In this document: positions 37,258 to 47,178 of the stretch, in pieces
Position numbering within the stretch: position 1 is the first letter of the stretch
Layout: every line of letters starts with the position of its first letter
Assembly (NCBI GenBank): GCA_903939115.1
Contig: CAJAFV010000012.1
Span: 1-64,000, forward strand
Reading direction: 5' to 3'
Source: an uncultured Geobacteraceae bacterium
GTDB taxonomy: Bacteria; Desulfobacterota; Desulfuromonadia; Geobacterales; Pseudopelobacteraceae
DNA length: 64,000 nt
Notes under the pieces: generated by a model
Told to the model about the DNA's origin: nothing
What the model saw: only the letters and a program-made list of their open reading frames with translations
Database searches by the model: none
Position numbers and translations under genes: made by a program

Positions 37258-37486
37258 TCCTTCAATAGAGGATCCCGTCCCGAAACCTGCCGGGTGTGCC
37301 TGACCGGAGGATGGCTGGGTGGGAGCAGATTGTGTGGCTTACTGAAAATCCTGCCTATCGTTATTCCACGTAAAATTGTACCGTTTTATAGCCGGTTATG
37401 TTTTATTACAAAACGTAATATACTGAAAAACAAAGGCTACTTCAATGGAGCCTTTTTTGCATACACTTATCTAAGCCAATTTAATG

Positions 37487-37565
37487 TTCCGTCTCAGGGT
37501 AACCCTATCGAGAGGTAGGCGCACAAAGTCGCAGGTCCCATAATCGGACGGCTGGGCTACCGGAA
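37487..37565 (+). promoter_or_regulatory. GEMM-I-type cyclic dinucleotide riboswitch
   Basis: The closing stem TTCCG (37487-37491) pairs with CGGAA (37561-37565). Inside are the GEMM-I hallmarks in order: CAGGGTAACCC, a short hairpin with a CGAGAG tetraloop, GGCGCACAAAGTC, a second hairpin (GGTCC...GGAC), then GGCTGGGCTACCG. This order matches the Vc2 c-di-GMP-I riboswitch. The base I align with position 20 is G, which would favour c-di-GMP over 3',3'-cGAMP, but the alignment is by eye. It lies upstream of a small ORF and the 13-heme cytochrome gene; GEMM riboswitches commonly control cytochromes in Geobacter. Confidence 0.82.
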
Positions 37566-37575
37566 ATAATCCTTG

Positions 37576-37935
37576 ATGGGATTTCCTGTGCGACATTTTT
37601 GCTTTATTAAATTCAGATTTTTTTTTATTGCGCCACTTTTGCTGCTGCATCTGCACTGTGGTCTCGCACTGTTGCATAATCATTTTGAAGACTCCTGGCA
37701 CAACGCTAAAGACCCTATCCACCAACTCTCCACTACTGTTGCTGTCAAATTACAGAAATTTTCAATAGCGCCAGGTCTCTCACTCACCGATTCAATCTAC
37801 CCCGACCACAGAACAATAGCTTTATATGAAGATGCAGACACCCTCTTCCTACCTCATAAGTACTACCTCACGTCAGCTAAATATCCTACCGGCCACCCGC
37901 TAGAATCGTTTCCTAATAAAGCCTCTCCCGCATAA
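37576..37935 (+). CDS. Possible small exported protein downstream of the riboswitch
   Basis: A 119-residue open frame starting 11 bp after the riboswitch. The N-terminus has a basic stretch and a hydrophobic core (FFFIAPLLLLHLHCGLALL) that could be a signal peptide or membrane anchor; the rest is not recognised. The ribosome-binding site is weak. Its place between riboswitch and cytochrome is the main support. It could instead be untranslated leader. Confidence 0.35.
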   Translation: MGFPVRHFCFIKFRFFFIAPLLLLHLHCGLALLHNHFEDSWHNAKDPIHQLSTTVAVKLQKFSIAPGLSLTDSIYPDHRTIALYEDADTLFLPHKYYLTSAKYPTGHPLESFPNKASPA

Positions 37936-38033
37936 ACCGCATCAATCCAATATTGTCCAATCTTGAATCTGATCAAGTTGGTAAAGGCAATTCTCACTCT
38001 GCATCTCATGTATGATCTGAAAAGGAGAAGATT

Positions 38034-40289
38034 ATGTTCAGAAAAAGTCTCGTTATAGTGACCTTATTATTTGCCATGATTCCAACTGTAGCTTCTGCTG
38101 CTTCGTGGAGCCTCAACACCTGGGTTAAATCAGGTGGTGGCAGTATTGTAGTGCGCGGTGGTACGCCACAGACCTCTGCCAACGGCTCTGTTTTCAAAAC
38201 CTACACAACCAGTAAAGCTTTCAACGTAACAGTCTCTCCCAACACCGGATATTCGGCCAGCCAAGTAACCTACAACACTGTCGTCACATCCAATCCCAGC
38301 CAGACAACGTACACGGTTCAAGGTCCCGCTTCCCAGAAAGTCTTTGCCACGTTTTCCCCGCAATTGCTGACGGTGACCGCGTCAACCAATACCGGCGGAT
38401 CGGTGAATCTCTCCAGCATAAGTGGCATATATTACGGGGCAAAGCTTTCCTCCGCGAAAAAGTTCACCTTTACCCCGAGTCCGGCAACATCAAGAGTGGA
38501 AAACATCGACGGGGTTCCTGCCGGGGCTACGGTGAGCCATACGTTACCTGCTTCTGCCAACACGGCGGTAACTGTCACCTTACCGGTCGGCTTCACCTTC
38601 ACATCTAACATCGCCCTCTACGGGACATTTTCCGGAGCTCCAGTTGCCAAAACAACTTCATCGCAGATAGTAAGTCCCGGAATGCTGACTACCCTTGACG
38701 GCAGTTCCAGCACCGGCTTCCCTTCCAGCTTTGCCTGGAGTCAAACCAGCGGCCCTTCGATACCTATCACCAATGCTAATGCTGCTGTTGCATCTTTTAC
38801 CCCTGCCGTAGTGGGCACTTACTCCTTCACCCTCACCATCACCGGTGGCTCGACCGCGTTAACAACGGTTACCGTCACAGATGACATTACCGGTGTAATC
38901 CGCTCACAATGCCAAAACTGTCATGCAGGCAACGGGATAGGGCCCAATGTCTTTGCGAACTGGTCTTCCTCACCGCACCGGGTAAAGAAAGTAATCTGCT
39001 CTCAGTGTCATATCGGGGCCAATACCGGCGGACATCCCGGACAGCTCACCAGCGGCTCGGTCAGCGAGACCACCTTTAACTACAATGCTTCTTTTGGCTC
39101 CGGAAATTTCTGCAGCACCTGCCATAACCCAGCCATAATTTCCGATTTTACTGCCAGCAAGCATTACGGACCGGCCGGCACTGCTTCCTGCAGCTTCTGC
39201 CATGTACAGGGTGTGCACAACCCGGCTGCTGCATGTATTAACTGTCATAACCCCGGCAATCCTCTTGGACTCCCCTGGCCGCCGACTGGAATGAATTTCC
39301 ACGATGAATATACCGGCACAAACCTCTGCACAACCTGTCATAACAAGCACTCGACTTCCGTAAGCGGCTGTGGCAACTGTCATGACAACCCTCCGGCCAC
39401 CGCTTCCCACTTGAAGCATTTTGGCAGCACTACTGTTGTATCAGGTTACGGTGATCTTCGCATTACAGGCGCTTTTACCAACTACAGCAGCGGTTATGTT
39501 TTCGGCTGTGGTAACTGCCATCCCATGGATATCTCTAAACATAAAAACGGTGTAGTAGACGTGGAACTATACAACTCTCTGGCGACAGCCGGGTCGATAA
39601 AAGCCCGCAACCCTGCTTCTGCAGGGTATGTAGCCGGTTCAGAGACGTTTACCGACTCAAAAGGAGTGGCCTATACCAAAGGAAAATGCAGTAACGTCTA
39701 CTGCCACAGCTACAATGAATCAGCGACAACAGCGACTATCGGCGACGGAGAATCAAACTGGGAAGCAAAGGTTGTTACCACCAGAATTTACAAAACTGTC
39801 ACCTGGGGCAGCAGTGCCCTCGGCTGTGCCGGCTGCCACGGCAATCCGACACAGACAACCTCTCTCACTAACGATGGCGGTGCAGGAGACAGCCACTCAT
39901 GGATAGACAGCCAGGGCTATCAGAATCTGCATACCTATAATATGGGCGGTGACCCTGTAAGCTGTAAATTCTGCCACAATGATACAGTCAAGCAGTTGAA
40001 CAGCTACACAACAGACGGCATGGGCGTAAGAACTCTCAGCGCTGTGCCAATCAGCAATTTTTCCAAGCACGTAAACGGCAACAACGATGTGGCATTCGAT
40101 ACACAAAATCCCTTTGTCTACAAGACATACTATAGCGGCGATGTTTCCAGAAGCCTCGCCGGAGCAACATATGCTCCAGAGACAAAAACCTGCTCGAATG
40201 TATCATGTCACCGCGAACAGACCGTCGTTAAATGGGGAACACCGTACCGCTGGTACTACAATGAGTGTAACGTTTGCCACAGTTACTAA
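38034..40289 (+). CDS. Exported multiheme c-type cytochrome (11 CxxCH + 2 CxxxxCH) with N-terminal Ig-like domains
   Basis: A 751-residue protein with a signal peptide (ending ASAAS) and AAAAGGAGAAG ahead of the ATG. Residues about 25-285 form beta-rich surface-type domains, the last resembling a PKD fold (LDGSSSTGFPSSFAWSQTSG, then GTYSFTLTITGG). From residue 290 on there are eleven CxxCH motifs plus two CxxxxCH motifs (CSNVYCH, CSNVSCH), each followed by a CxxCH. The paired CxxxxCH/CxxCH arrangement is a domain seen in Geobacter multiheme cytochromes. It is probably a secreted or surface electron carrier. The riboswitch upstream suggests second-messenger control. Confidence 0.92.
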   Translation: MFRKSLVIVTLLFAMIPTVASAASWSLNTWVKSGGGSIVVRGGTPQTSANGSVFKTYTTSKAFNVTVSPNTGYSASQVTYNTVVTSNPSQTTYTVQGPASQKVFATFSPQLLTVTASTNTGGSVNLSSISGIYYGAKLSSAKKFTFTPSPATSRVENIDGVPAGATVSHTLPASANTAVTVTLPVGFTFTSNIALYGTFSGAPVAKTTSSQIVSPGMLTTLDGSSSTGFPSSFAWSQTSGPSIPITNANAAVASFTPAVVGTYSFTLTITGGSTALTTVTVTDDITGVIRSQCQNCHAGNGIGPNVFANWSSSPHRVKKVICSQCHIGANTGGHPGQLTSGSVSETTFNYNASFGSGNFCSTCHNPAIISDFTASKHYGPAGTASCSFCHVQGVHNPAAACINCHNPGNPLGLPWPPTGMNFHDEYTGTNLCTTCHNKHSTSVSGCGNCHDNPPATASHLKHFGSTTVVSGYGDLRITGAFTNYSSGYVFGCGNCHPMDISKHKNGVVDVELYNSLATAGSIKARNPASAGYVAGSETFTDSKGVAYTKGKCSNVYCHSYNESATTATIGDGESNWEAKVVTTRIYKTVTWGSSALGCAGCHGNPTQTTSLTNDGGAGDSHSWIDSQGYQNLHTYNMGGDPVSCKFCHNDTVKQLNSYTTDGMGVRTLSAVPISNFSKHVNGNNDVAFDTQNPFVYKTYYSGDVSRSLAGATYAPETKTCSNVSCHREQTVVKWGTPYRWYYNECNVCHSY

Positions 40290-41006: not shown

Positions 41007-43739
41007 TTACTCCTCCAACCCTATCAGAGCCTCACGAACCTTTGCCGACAGTGAGGCCATGTTAAATGGCTTTTGCAAAAAGTTCATATGCTCTTCCAGA
41101 GCACCCCGTCCTGATATAACGTCGGCAGTATAACCGGACATGAACAAACAGGTCATATCCGGATTCTTCTGAATCAATATTTCAGATAAATCACGCCCAT
41201 TCATTCCTGGCATTATTATATCGGTAATCAGCAGAGTTATCTGCCCTTGATTTTCATCGGCAAGTTGTATTGCCTCTTCAGGGGAATTAGCAGAAAACAC
41301 TTTATATCCCAGTTTTTTAAGCATGGTTGTGCCTAAGTGCATAATGGAAAGTTCATCTTCTACCAGCAGAATTGTTTCACTGCCACCAACAACAGCAGGT
41401 TTTTCCTTAATACCTTCGACTGAGTCCGTTATACCGGGAAGATATACTCTAAAAGTAGTACCTTGCCCTGGTTCACTGTAAACCTTGATTTCCCCCTTAT
41501 TTTGCTTAACAATGCCAAAGACCGTTGCCAATCCGAGTCCGGTTCCTTTACCGACCTCTTTGGTGGTGTAAAATGGTTCAAAAATATGATTGATGACATT
41601 TTTTGGTATACCACTGCCATTATCGCTCACTGAAAGCATTACATATTCACCGGGTACCATTTCTGAGTGTTTATCCCATCCAGTCTCATCGAGAGTAAAA
41701 TTTCCCGTCTGAATTGCTACTTTACCGACACCTGAAATGGCATCCCTTGCATTGACGCAGAGGTTTGCCATTATCTGATCCAACTGTGATGGGTCAATTT
41801 TTACATTTAAGAGTTCATAGCCGGGGTTCCAGATCAGGTCAATATCTTCACCCATAAGTTGCCGAAGCATTTTGAGCAATCCGGAAACGGTATCATTGAG
41901 ATCGAGTATTTTGGGGTTAACCGTCTGCTGGCGAGAAAAAGCCAGCAATTGTTTGGTGATGCCTGCAGAGCGTTCAGAAGCGTTAATAATTTCTTCTACA
42001 TAGTGGTACAAGGGCTTGGTAGAATCAGCTCCCATTAAGGCGAGTTGGGCATAGCCAGTGATGACAGTGAGCATATTATTGAAATCATGGGCTACACCAC
42101 CAGCAAGTTTGCCGACTGATTCCATTTTTTGTGATTGGTGTAATTGTTCCTCCACTTTTCGTTGCTCAGTGATATCCCGCACCGTTTGAATTACCCCGAT
42201 TATATTTCCAGCACTATCCAGCAACGGAGCGTAGGTATCAGATGTATTCACGGATTTTTTTGAATCCGGAATGTTAAAATTAATGCCAATATTTTCTGCT
42301 ACCTCTCCGGCAAGAACCTTGCGTAATCTCTCCAGTACGCCAGAATCTTGCAGAAAGGGGAAAACCTCCAGAGGCATTTTTCCAACGACATCTTCTGATT
42401 TTATTCCAATCATTTTCTCCATATAGGGATTCCAGACCAGATAACGAAGGTCTCTGTCGTGGACAATGATCCCCTCTTGAGCGCTGCTGATAATCTGCTG
42501 GTTGAACAGCAGGGCTTGCTTCAGATTCTCTTCAGCTTGTTTCTGCCTGGTTATATCTTCGTATACCCCTAGGACTCCGGTAACTGTTCCGGATTCGTCT
42601 TTAAGCGGAACCTTTGTGGTATCAACCCATATGGTCGTCCCGTCAGCCTGACGTTGCGTTTCAATAATGTGTTCCTTCGCTTCCACCCGCTCCATAACAG
42701 CACGGTCATCATCTCGAAAACTCTCAGCTTCTTCACGACTCCATGCCAAGTCGAAATCGCTCAAACCAATCAAGTCATCAGATTTGTCATAACCAGCTCG
42801 GCGAGCAAAATTTTGATTACAGCCAAGATATACAGATGTCTTGTCCTTCCAGAATAGTGATTGCGGAATTGAGTTAATTATGCGGGAAAGCATGGTGTGG
42901 CTTTTGTTTAGCGATTCATAAGGTTTTCTGACGGAGGCTACGAATATTCCTTTATAGATAATCAAAAATGCCCCAATTTTATATAGATGCCCCAACATGT
43001 TGTAGGTGTCGAAGGCGCTTTTATAGAGTGTAAAAGAAAGTTCACTGAATATGCAGATTACAAAGGCTACCAAGTAGTATTGAATCACCCGTTCCCCAGT
43101 TCGGGACAATCGTTGCCAATACATGATAGTTGCCAGAACCAGTAAAAAAATTATGACATATTCTGAATTTACCTTGAACGGTGTCAGCCCTATACCTTGA
43201 ACGAATGCTACAGGGACGTAGTCTGGAAAGTAGATAATTGCGATAAAAACTACGCTTGAAACCACCAGCGCACAAGTCATGAGTGGTGTTTTTGATATCC
43301 AGCGTCGCTTGCTGTCTAAAGATATAAAAGCACTGATAAGAAAAACTGAGGCACTAAAAAAACGGACAGCAATCCAGAACTGTGTAGCTTTGTTTGGTAG
43401 GTGGGGTGTTATTAGGGCGGGCATACCGGCATAACCCAGAGTATGCATAAAGTCCATCAGACCAATAGCAAGGAAAGAAACGCTTAGAAACAGCGAGTGT
43501 TGGTCATTGTTCTGGTCATAGGCATACCAGCCTAAACCAAAAATAGAGAAGGAAACCATAACACTGAAAAATTCAGTTACATTGTGAAAAACAAGGTAGG
43601 GACTAATCACCATAACCGTGTAGAGACTTGATTTAAATAGCTCCACAAGCAGAAATGGAATAGCCGACAGAAAAACTGTCGAGACAAGTAATGGAATCGC
43701 TGGAATCTGTTCTAGTTTTTTCATGACAGAATGAGACAA
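41007..43739 (-). CDS. Hybrid histidine kinase: MASE3-like sensor, PAS-PAS-HisKA-HATPase-REC
   Basis: A 910-residue membrane-bound kinase. Residues about 15-275 hold some eight hydrophobic helices of the MASE3 type (the [11 protein letters not shown] segment is characteristic). Two PAS domains follow (about 285-405 and 410-530). The phosphoacceptor is His551 in [11 protein letters not shown]. The ATPase domain has NARDA, DNGSGIP and [11 protein letters not shown], and the C-terminal receiver domain has Asp840 (LLITDIIMP) and a lysine in FLQKPF. The VAHDFNN box places it in a different HisKA group from the other island kinases. A TTG at 43739 or ATG at 43724 could be the start. Confidence 0.9.
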
Positions 43740-44007: not shown

Positions 44008-47000
44008 TTATAAATTCATAACCCGCTTCATTTCGGCGACCAACTCCTTTGCCAACATCGGTTTTGACAGATACCCGTCAAATCCTCCCTCAAGAAAGCG
44101 GTCCTTTTCACCACGTAACGCATGGGCGGTGAGAGCAATGACCCGTTGATGTGAAGAGGCCCCCTGCTCTTTGGAGCGAATTGCCCGGAGCGTTTCTTCG
44201 CCATTCATAACCGGCATCTGGATATCCATCAGGACGAGATCGAATGTGCCCTGATCAAGCGCTTCCAGACTCTCTGTACCATTTGCAGCCGTCACGACTT
44301 CATGGCCATGCTTACCAAGCAGTACTGTACCGAATTTCATATTGATCGGATTGTCTTCCACTAACAGAACCCGTAAGGATGGGCCGTCCCAGGCAGGCAT
44401 TGTTATAGGAGCTTTGGGTTCAGTTGTATCTGTCATGGTTGGGATCGTGAGCGGTAATTTCAGCATGAAGCTGCTGCCGACTCCTTGCGTACTTTCGACA
44501 GATATATTACCACCCATGAACTCTGCCAGGCGACGACTGATAGTGAGGCCAAGACCGGTGCCGCCAAACTGGCGGGTCGTTGAGCCATCCTCCTGAACAA
44601 ACGGGTTAAATATTTTTTCGAGCGCCTCGGCAGAAATGCCGATACCGGTATCGGCAACCGAAATCTGAATGACAAGGGAGCCATGATGCCGTTCAAGCAC
44701 CTTTGCAGTGATGGTGATTCCCCCTGATTTTGTGAACTTTGCTGCATTGCCGAGCAGGTTGAGTGTTATCTGTTTGACCCGCAGTTGATCGCCTATTAGC
44801 GAGCTGGGAATTTCCTCGTCAACAGTGATATCAAACGCAAGCTTCTTCTCGAATATGAACGATTTCTGCATCATATAGACTTCATTGATTGCACGACGCA
44901 GATCAAACTCTACAGATTCGATAACGATCTTTCCCGCTTCAATCTTTGACAGATCAAGAATGTCGTTGACCAGTGACACCAGGTTATTACCGGATAGTTT
45001 GAGTAAGGTCACGTAATTCTGCTGTTCGTGCGTCAGGTCAGTCATCTCCAGAAGCTGGGTCATGCCGAGCAAGCCGTTCATTGGGGTGCGGATCTCGTGG
45101 CTCATGTTAGCCAGGAATTCACTCTTGGCCCGGTTGGCAGATTCGGCGGCAGCTTTAGCCTGAAGCAATTCCTCTTCATATTTTATCCGTTCTGTGACAT
45201 CCTCCAAAATCCAGAGCGTTCCCCGTGACATGTCCTGTGGATCTATGGCTTTTCCGATGCATCTGACCAGAAAGTGTTCACCATCTTTTTTTACCAATTC
45301 CTGTATCGTGATAAACATATCCCCTTGTGCCAGTACAGGATAAGCTTGCTGGCTAAATTGTTCGTATGCTTCATCGGAAGGGTAGATTGCTCTGGTTGGC
45401 TGGTTTGTTATCTCTTCAGGCGAGTAGAGGAATAACTCAGTTGTTTTTTGGTTTACCCATACTTGCACCCTGTCAACAATTTTGGAGATTCCCACAGGTG
45501 CATTCTCTAACAGGATATTCAATTCATTGGTTCTCTGTGCAACCTGTTCCTCCAGCGATTCGTTGATCCGCCTGGTTTCATTAAACTGCTTTGCCAGCAA
45601 ATCAGCCATCTTGCTAAAATTGGCGATCAGGTCATGCGGTTCCTGGATGCCGCTTTCCGGCCACTCTATATCCTTCCTGCCTGTTGTCAGTTTATCAGGA
45701 AAGTCCTGAGTGATATGCACCAGTTTTTCAATGGTGACGATGAAGCGACGGCTCAAGTATTCTGCCAGTGCCATTGCAGCGAGCAGGAGCAGGAATAACA
45801 TGGACAGTCTGCTGGTGTAGCTGTCATAGAGGGCTTTTTGAAATGGCGCCACAGGCTGTTCCAGAACCAGTTTCCACCCGGCCATTCCTCCCAGAGTGGT
45901 CTCTGCGACATAGTATGATTTTTTCCAGCGCTCAGACACAGGGGTATTGGGCGGCAGGGCGGGAATCCACTGGCTGATTTCTTTATCAACAGGAGCAAGT
46001 GTACCTTTGCCCCGCTCAAAGGGTGTCATGACTTTCTGCTCAGTACGGTTGGTCATAATGACATTGCCATTGCTGTCAAGCAGCGTGTATAGCGAAGCAT
46101 CCCGGCTCATGTTGATTTCAAGGGAACTCTGAATCTGCTCCAAACCAAGAACGCCAAACAAGAAACCATTGTAGCGCCCTTTGTTCATAACTGGTGCCAT
46201 CATGAGTACTCGCGGCTTGCTGATACCGATCTTACCCATAAATACGTCAGACAGCATCGGTTTAAGGGCTTGCTTGATGACTGGCACATAGGGCCGATCT
46301 GATAAATCGATCCCGATGGTGCTCTTGCCCGACTCATCTATTCGTGGGGCAAATGCTAAAGAGATGGCCTCCTTATTCACGAAGCCGAGGCGATCATAAA
46401 AGTCAGCCGACCGTTTTGCCTGTTCCAAAAGTGCCTGCATCTGTTGTGGAGAGTTGGTTTTAGCGATATTAGCCAACTCAACTATTGGCTGTTTCCGGTG
46501 TTCCAGCCAAATGTCAAGAAAGAGCCGCTCTGTCTTGATTGCATGTAATAGCGTGACTTTAATTTGCTTATCGGTTGCTGCAAAATCTGCTCTGCTGCTG
46601 AAAGCCAGCGTGGCAAGTGCAGGCATCAAGATAAAGAAGATAAAAAGATTATAAATTATCTCACGGTAAGACATCAAAGATGAACGGGTGCGAAGAACAT
46701 ATCCGGTGAAAATTAGGCGTGCAACCAGGGCGTTGGCAATGCCGTTCACCGCCTGTTTGGTCATGACAATGTAGGTATTGCTGGGTGGGACATGCATGGC
46801 CACGTGATAGAAAAGATAGACCAGCGGCATTCCTATGACGAGCCAGTAAAGAGTATCAGACAAAACCATCCCCATCTTTTGGCGACTCATTAACCAACCG
46901 ACAGAAGCTACTTCAGCAGTCATAATGATGATAGCGTAGGGATGGTTCCAGAGGATGTAGGTGTAACCGGCAATCATTGCGGCTGCAACTATGCCACGGC

Positions 47001-47178
47001 CAACCCCTAAGAACTGCAATGCCAGCATGGCGAAGATGCTACCGAATAGAAAGTCGATATTTAGGAAGATCGGGTATTTGAAGTAGTTGCCGGCCAGACC
47101 GGCGGCGATCAGTGTCAGCAGGAGCGGGATGCTGTATTTATTGGGTGTGCGTCCTTGGTCGGCTTCCGTTGTTGTCAT
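44008..47178 (-). CDS. Hybrid histidine kinase: multi-TM sensor, Cache, PAS, HisKA-HATPase-REC
   Basis: A 1056-residue kinase. An N-terminal block of about six membrane helices (15-190) resembles a MASE-type sensor. A large extracytoplasmic region with Cache-like features (about 205-450; [15 protein letters not shown], then [14 protein letters not shown]) and a final helix (about 455-475) follow. After a linker and coiled coil comes a PAS domain, then HisKA with His694 (MSHEIRTP), an ATPase domain ([12 protein letters not shown]), and a receiver with Asp985 (LVLMDIQMP). The kinase-receiver half is nearly identical in DNA to that of the 1446-residue kinase. It follows the small response regulator gene and may share its transcript. 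Confidence 0.9.

Follow-up and report, generated by a model that had tools for sequence, protein, structure and literature searches.

What determines when the multiheme cytochrome gene at positions 38034-40289 is expressed? Within the window (the whole stretch of DNA that was analyzed, 64,000 nt), this gene follows a GEMM-I element and a small ORF on the same, forward strand, an arrangement that the original prediction took to suggest second-messenger control of extracellular electron transfer. The occurrence of GEMM-I ahead of Geobacter cytochromes is already known, and the window element alone would be one more member of that regulon. The part worth following is the leader ORF, along with the order-wide family to which it belongs and the way it is coupled to GEMM-I. 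Tentatively, and with slightly more doubt than confidence, we read the cytochrome leader as a two-stage control region in which a c-di-GMP riboswitch would be followed by a nascent-peptide gate.

The element at 37488-37564 is, as judged from its score and covariation, a genuine GEMM-I riboswitch. A covariance-model search (cmscan) of the 64-kb window gave 42.7 bits for RF01051 (c-di-GMP-I) against a gathering score of 35, and no other riboswitch was found in the window. An alignment with eight relatives shows covariation: 95.7% of pair cells are standard and 10 cells have both sides changed, with either value reached in none of 500 shuffles. The closing stem, P1, is formed by UUCCG (37487-37491) and CGGAA (37561-37565), so both the identity of the element and its closing stem hold as originally described.

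Which second messenger does it bind? The ligand-contact bases read from the alignments are, in Vc2 numbering, G20 (37498), A47 (37525), and C92 (37560). Because of this contact set, c-di-GMP is most likely the ligand and a better prediction than cGAMP, in agreement with an earlier, tentative reading of the specificity base. The A20 criterion for GEMM-Ib points the same way, with a G at 37498, and A20G in a Geobacter GEMM-Ib riboswitch makes it c-di-GMP-selective (PMC6456294). Binding of 3',3'-cGAMP, or of both ligands, despite G20 seems improbable: the OmcST riboswitch in Geobacter is reported to respond to both (PMC6456294), and the host genome has one Hypr GGDEF and five A20 elements, but G20, A47, and C92 are c-di-GMP contacts, and A20G is the very change that turns GEMM-Ib to c-di-GMP. 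Far less probable again is that the element is a c-di-GMP-I-GGC variant (RF03167) with a different ligand. In a narrow search, RF03167 scored 43.1 bits, slightly above RF01051, but its family threshold of 59 bits is far higher and its defining G47 is an A here; these two observations led us to rule the variant out. Elsewhere, two GEMM-I elements occur in series upstream of a leader ORF (L091/L100, G050:C22), one of which exceeds the RF03167 threshold yet has A at position 47, and the Rfam RF03167 model may be poor at separating the GGC variant in that lineage.

The host genome, a 99-contig assembly, contains 19 GEMM-I elements, which a reading of the alignments divides into 14 with G20 and five with A20 (L006, L007, L009, L010, and L012). 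The ligand contacts of the GSU1761 aptamer (G8, A9, A11, A12, A14, C15, G40, A41, and A42 in the published numbering, where A14 is position 20) are all matched by L006. The single Hypr-type GGDEF, L075 (G000:C89:10759-11229; NDSYGHMIGS...GGDEY, with Ser at the selectivity position), is by its sequence likely to be a cGAMP synthase. Since it occurs amid about 20 canonical GGDEF domains or proteins, the presence of both c-di-GMP and cGAMP in the cell is plausible. Several of the other elements have neighborhoods of their own. A tandem pair of A20-type, cGAMP-like elements (L007/L009, G000:C19:43492-43797) has a lipoprotein gene downstream. Near-identical G20 elements lie upstream of PilZ-domain genes (L003 and L004, G000:C47 and C36; PF07238, E 2.4e-12), with an 11/12 sigma-54 match about 118 nt upstream, giving a c-di-GMP riboswitch that precedes the gene for a c-di-GMP receptor. 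Three nearly identical elements on separate contigs (L015, L016, and L017; G000:C56, C39, and C1), two of which precede one type of small gene, are evidently the product of a recent duplication of riboswitch and gene.

Where would the leader transcript begin? A putative sigma-54 promoter (-24/-12) at 37446-37461, TGGAGCCTTTTTTGCA (TGGAGC-N5-TTGCA), matches 9 of 12 consensus positions, and from it we infer a transcription start at about 37472. Sites with 9/12 matches are not rare (25 in the 128 kb scanned), making this one weak alone. Sites scoring 9-11 are found 30-47 nt before the aptamer at L008, L011, L106, L013, L157, L158, L160, L185, and L186; L008, L011, and L106 match 11 of 12 positions, and several other members 9-10. 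A sigma-70 promoter scan gave no hits above shuffles. The cytochrome gene may have a separate promoter, although the promoter scan turned up no good candidate for one.

How might ligand binding affect expression? The window element, four other host elements, and relatives elsewhere form a GEMM-I subfamily with a U22-A45 pair, and the model of this subfamily (R1) has matches in 115 of the 141 genomes of the order. The expression platform was compared across 25 subfamily members, namely those in the R1 model itself plus its best additional matches. In 17 of the 25, a start codon lies 14-28 nt past the aptamer and is accompanied by a ribosome-binding site that agrees at 4 or more of 6 positions, as against 11.6% of shuffles; the window element, owing to its weak GGGA site, is outside these 17. 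In 19 relatives, pairing between the P1 5' strand and the downstream ribosome-binding region averages -8.87 kcal/mol, versus -7.61 kcal/mol with permuted partners (p = 0.006). In the window, the P1 5' strand, GUUCCGUC (37486-37493), is complementary to the ribosome-binding region of the small ORF, GAUGGGAU (37575-37582), with a duplex energy of -9.8 kcal/mol. A single P1 strand would therefore serve both the ligand-bound P1 and occlusion of the site, which suggests that riboswitches of the U22-A45 subfamily exert translational ON control, with the P1 5' strand as the anti-ribosome-binding-site strand. The switch envisaged originally was a different one, in which a downstream hairpin competes with the closing stem. 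That hairpin (CGGAAAU..AUUUCC) can form, at -6.9 kcal/mol, but it is not conserved, and shuffled tails compete with the aptamer just as strongly; the subfamily instead conserves the complementarity of the P1 5' strand to the ribosome-binding site.

At four loci (L008, 1606-1695; L013, 1608-1706; L157; and L159), short GTG leader ORFs of 29-48 codons begin about 20 nt past the aptamer and extend through a strong terminator hairpin just downstream of GEMM-I. The terminator hairpin sequence accounts for the tails of these ORFs (YFRAPV/YYRAPV/YFREPV/YFRVPA). The layout suggests that the riboswitch at these loci admits ribosomes, which would disrupt the terminator.

Which start codon would the window riboswitch control? 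The likely answer is GTG 37588, the start of the small ORF, rather than that of the cytochrome. Because the ORF is the likely direct target, control of the cytochrome would be indirect, a putative later step; the earlier idea of second-messenger control is retained. In other subfamily members, the start codon after the aptamer does belong to a cytochrome or lipoprotein gene (L005, L161, L162, L164, L168, L185, and L188). L005, in the host genome, is informative because its cytochrome, 21 nt behind an aptamer of the same riboswitch subfamily, is homologous to that of the window (37% identity over 402 aa to the 38034-40289 product). The proposed link to electron-transfer genes gains from this case.

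The window cytochrome itself, a c-type protein of 751 aa with a PKD-like domain, has 11 CXXCH and 2 CX4CH motifs, that is, the 13 putative hemes expected for it, and it matches TIGR01904. A search for close relatives in named genomes returned only distant multiheme proteins, with no GEMM-I nearby. The host's GEMM-I repertoire, its cytochromes, and the structure of the family nevertheless suggest a place in the Geobacter lineage. Its gene lies 98 nt beyond the small ORF, and its ribosome-binding site, AAGGAGA (38022-38028), is predicted to pair with 37904-37914 inside that ORF (p about 0.75). SecM/CutF-like hiding of the cytochrome site by the 3' end of the ORF was considered and rejected: it is not significant against synonymous codons, 20% of recodings doing as well, and it is not common to the ORF family. 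Convergent with the cytochrome gene, on the reverse strand at 41007-43739 and 44008-47178, are two large hybrid sensor kinases with MASE3-PAS-HK-REC and Cache/PAS-HK-REC architectures.

What is the small ORF? It had been described as an ORF of 119 codons, which would begin at ATG 37576. The ORF is real and conserved, but GTG 37588, which aligns with the TTG of L106 and the GTG of L100, is probably its start, giving 115 aa (37588-37935) instead. A profile search found the family in 24 of the 141 genomes of the order and in 28 of 277 genomes of the class, and no match among these 277 lay outside the one order. The ORF has no family in Pfam or NCBIfam, and DUF2946 (PF11162) has a Pfam match in none of 25 family members, so DUF2946 and other known families were ruled out. 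A hydrophobic segment lies at the N-terminus of every member, including, by inspection, the 115-aa ORF. CXXC is absent from the window ORF. A His motif, HNHFEDSWHNAKDPIH (37675-37722), contains H30 and H45, each conserved at 90% or more across 25 sequences, and a motif around HxH..xSxYDxxDxxH is found in nearly all members. A second family copy in the host genome (L122/L148, G000:C58:85828-86262) has the tail RASPV, with a GEMM-I element 35 nt downstream and then a metallophosphoesterase gene.

The family has a conserved C-terminal tail, KASP in the window ORF (37918-37929). The motif [R/K][A/G/V][S/P]P occurs near the C-terminus in 29 of 29 family members, as RASP, RAPP, RGSP, or RVSP, or as KASP in six including the window ORF; the first residue is Arg in 23 and Lys in 6. 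All four of the later, weaker matches also have it, ending in RAPP, and are not a fully independent test because most of them also matched over the tail of the profile. Among 942 other ORFs of the same loci, only seven carry it within the final 17 residues. The codons for the tail vary freely, and the motif is therefore conserved as protein. The distance from the His motif to the tail, where measurable, is 68-69, 76-81, or 85-86 residues, which we infer would let the His motif extend into the periplasm with the tail still inside the ribosome. The RNA has an unusual composition as well. A C-rich, G-poor stretch at 37690-37960 is, by composition, a possible Rho-utilization (rut) region, and C/(C+G) is 0.678 for the small ORF versus a mean of 0.494 for window genes, a value reached by 0 of 1283 gene windows. 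C is not elevated at the fourfold sites of the ORF, so the bias reflects amino-acid make-up and not synonymous choice; RNA-level selection for a rut site was accordingly set aside, leaving a bias of composition only.

What lies next to the leader ORF in other genomes? In nearly all family loci with a readable neighbor, the gene that follows codes for a protein that is exported or sits in the membrane. For example, membrane 9-heme cytochromes follow the ORF at L101, L111-L114, L116, L117, and L142, and a decaheme cytochrome of the GSU2203 type follows it at L099, with similar ones at L105 and L144; other downstream genes encode secreted repeat proteins, PEP-CTERM-like proteins, and lipoproteins. 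GEMM-I touches the leader ORF in 5 of 33 family members, coming before the ORF in the window, L100, and L106, and after it in L122 and L102. Thus, GEMM-I is directly upstream in only 3 of 33 members, one of which is the starting case. Contact in 5 of 33 members nonetheless far exceeds chance: with about a dozen GEMM-I elements per genome, the probability is roughly estimated at < 1e-4 when the starting case is left out. One operon, encoding an exported protein of ~140 aa and then a tetraheme cytochrome (67-68% identical), is found in four genomes; GEMM-I stands at its head in G028 and G103 (L156 and L186), and a KASP leader ORF takes that position in G111 and G117 (L103 and L104). Because the same operon can be headed by either, GEMM-I and leader-ORF modules evidently replace one another in evolution.

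How could the two modules work together at the window locus? A transcript made from the candidate sigma-54-type promoter would start with the riboswitch, which is assigned by homology. Binding of c-di-GMP to the G20/A47/C92 aptamer would, as in the rest of its family, lock P1. Without ligand, the P1 5' strand would hide the ribosome-binding site of the small ORF, and with ligand the site would be freed, a step for which there is comparative support. Translation would then produce an exported leader peptide with a His motif able to reach the periplasm and a RAPP-like tail. This peptide most likely regulates as a nascent chain, in the manner of SecM, ApdP, CruR, and CutF. A pause at the tail, or mere translation of the ORF, may shield the C-rich RNA from Rho or open the cytochrome site. 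Synthesis of the cytochrome would require both the second messenger and a leader peptide that signals the right conditions in the periplasm. We favor this two-stage control from the analogy to RAPP-like arrest and from the C-rich, G-poor RNA of the ORF, as in CruR, which acts via such RNA and Rho. The Lys in KASP is a serious caveat because Arg is irreplaceable in the RAPP-type arrest peptides known and tested (PMC12992588). A broader proposal, which we hold with distinctly more doubt than belief, is that of a tandem gate: the riboswitch would admit translation of an arrest-type peptide, the peptide would decide on the electron-transfer cytochrome, and across the order the family would serve generally to sense the periplasm and regulate cytochrome and surface-protein genes.

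There are two other ways to read the locus. It could be a plain c-di-GMP-controlled two-gene operon, encoding an ordinary small periplasmic protein and the cytochrome, without nascent-peptide regulation. This is a real possibility, albeit a doubtful one: the conservation of riboswitch and ORF holds either way, a conserved C-terminus could serve the mature protein, and the tail is KASP, not RAPP. Yet the family preserves the tail motif and its spacing although the middle ~50 residues cannot be aligned, the variants RASP, RAPP, and RGSP are those listed for arrest peptides, and the ORF stays ahead of genes for exported proteins rather than being freely distributed. The other reading concerns the riboswitch and is unlikely, namely that it is a transcriptional ON switch in which, without ligand, a P3 strand, 37589-37594, and a U-run form a terminator that ligand prevents. 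The strongest predicted alternatives to the aptamer are pairing of the P3 5' strand with UGCGAC and pairing of the P1 5' strand with GAUGGGAU. The first gives a possible terminator-like fold (37528-37600; GUCGCA at 37528-37533 with UGCGAC at 37589-37594, then AUUUUU), which is the minimum-energy fold, about 10 kcal/mol below the aptamer form (-38.8 versus -28.9 kcal/mol with the aptamer forced), and anti-termination by ligand is the GSU1761 model in Geobacter cGAMP riboswitches (PMC6456294). However, shuffled tails do as well (p = 0.14), no canonical terminator was found by scanning, the U-run is short, and what relatives share is the start-codon element, not the fold. Failing to improve on shuffled tails, the terminator switch was dropped as the main explanation and kept as a rival to translational control.

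If the two-stage leader is real, what is new? It would provide a testable account of how cytochrome synthesis is matched to conditions beyond the inner membrane, through a fresh architecture of riboswitch and then nascent-peptide sensor. A family of leader peptides resembling arrest sensors before electron-transfer genes, including those for decaheme GSU2203-type and membrane multiheme cytochromes, would be new, as would a second-messenger riboswitch that acts, at a few loci, as the entry gate to a leader peptide. The pairing of a riboswitch with a candidate ribosome-arresting leader before an electron-transfer gene seems to be undescribed: searches of open-access papers turned up neither a riboswitch coupled to an arrest peptide nor any arrest peptide described from Geobacter, and a 2025 survey of arrest peptides is confined to RAPP/RGPP, with cytochromes absent from its main text. 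The data also suggest a GEMM-I subfamily that acts through translation by means of P1.

How does the locus compare with known systems? When a small exported upstream ORF carries a RAPP-like tail, it works as a regulator by translation arrest; examples are SecM (RAGP), ApdA/ApdP (RAPP), and the RQH family (PMC10987492, PMC12992588, PMC10951233). Such tails act by stalling ribosomes or by controlling the genes that follow (PMC10987492, PMC12992588, PMC9426467), and RASP and RGSP are listed variants. The window ORF resembles them in being a small exported ORF (115 aa) on the same strand as, and 98 nt upstream of, its downstream gene, with a variable middle and a conserved short motif near the C-terminus. 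The known arrest peptides precede sec/yidC genes, whereas the family described here precedes genes for cytochromes and surface proteins, and they have Arg where the window member has Lys, its arrest being a prediction by analogy. A second likeness is to the metal-sensing upstream ORFs CruR (DUF2946) and CutF (PMC9426467, PMC9973294), which are likewise exported, with a putative metal-binding motif, a C-terminal Pro motif, and a downstream gene on the same strand; the Rho region of CruR is C-rich, as is the RNA of the window ORF. By the filter used for CutF-like ORFs (PMC9973294), the window ORF is shorter than 150 aa, has the H30/H45 motif, and has a same-strand gene within 1000 nt, but it carries SP rather than PP in its last 15 residues; PP is present in the RAPP subgroup (L101, L102, L108, L111-L114, L116, and L117). 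Unlike CruR and CutF, the window ORF has a His-only motif without CXXC or a DUF2946 match, its family has a spacing of 68-86 instead of 45, and it has GEMM-I upstream. The riboswitch shares with other RF01051 members its fold, an above-threshold score, G20/A47/C92, and a leader position, and differs in having U22-A45 instead of C22-G45, a start codon immediately past the aptamer, and a P1 5' strand that doubles as an anti-ribosome-binding-site strand. The GEMM-Ib cGAMP riboswitches of Geobacter (GSU1761/pgcA, Gmet_0970, and omcAHG) have A20 and terminator platforms, in contrast to the G20 of the window element. Nevertheless, they share with it a common lineage and a position upstream of multiheme cytochromes, and ON logic is expected both there and here.
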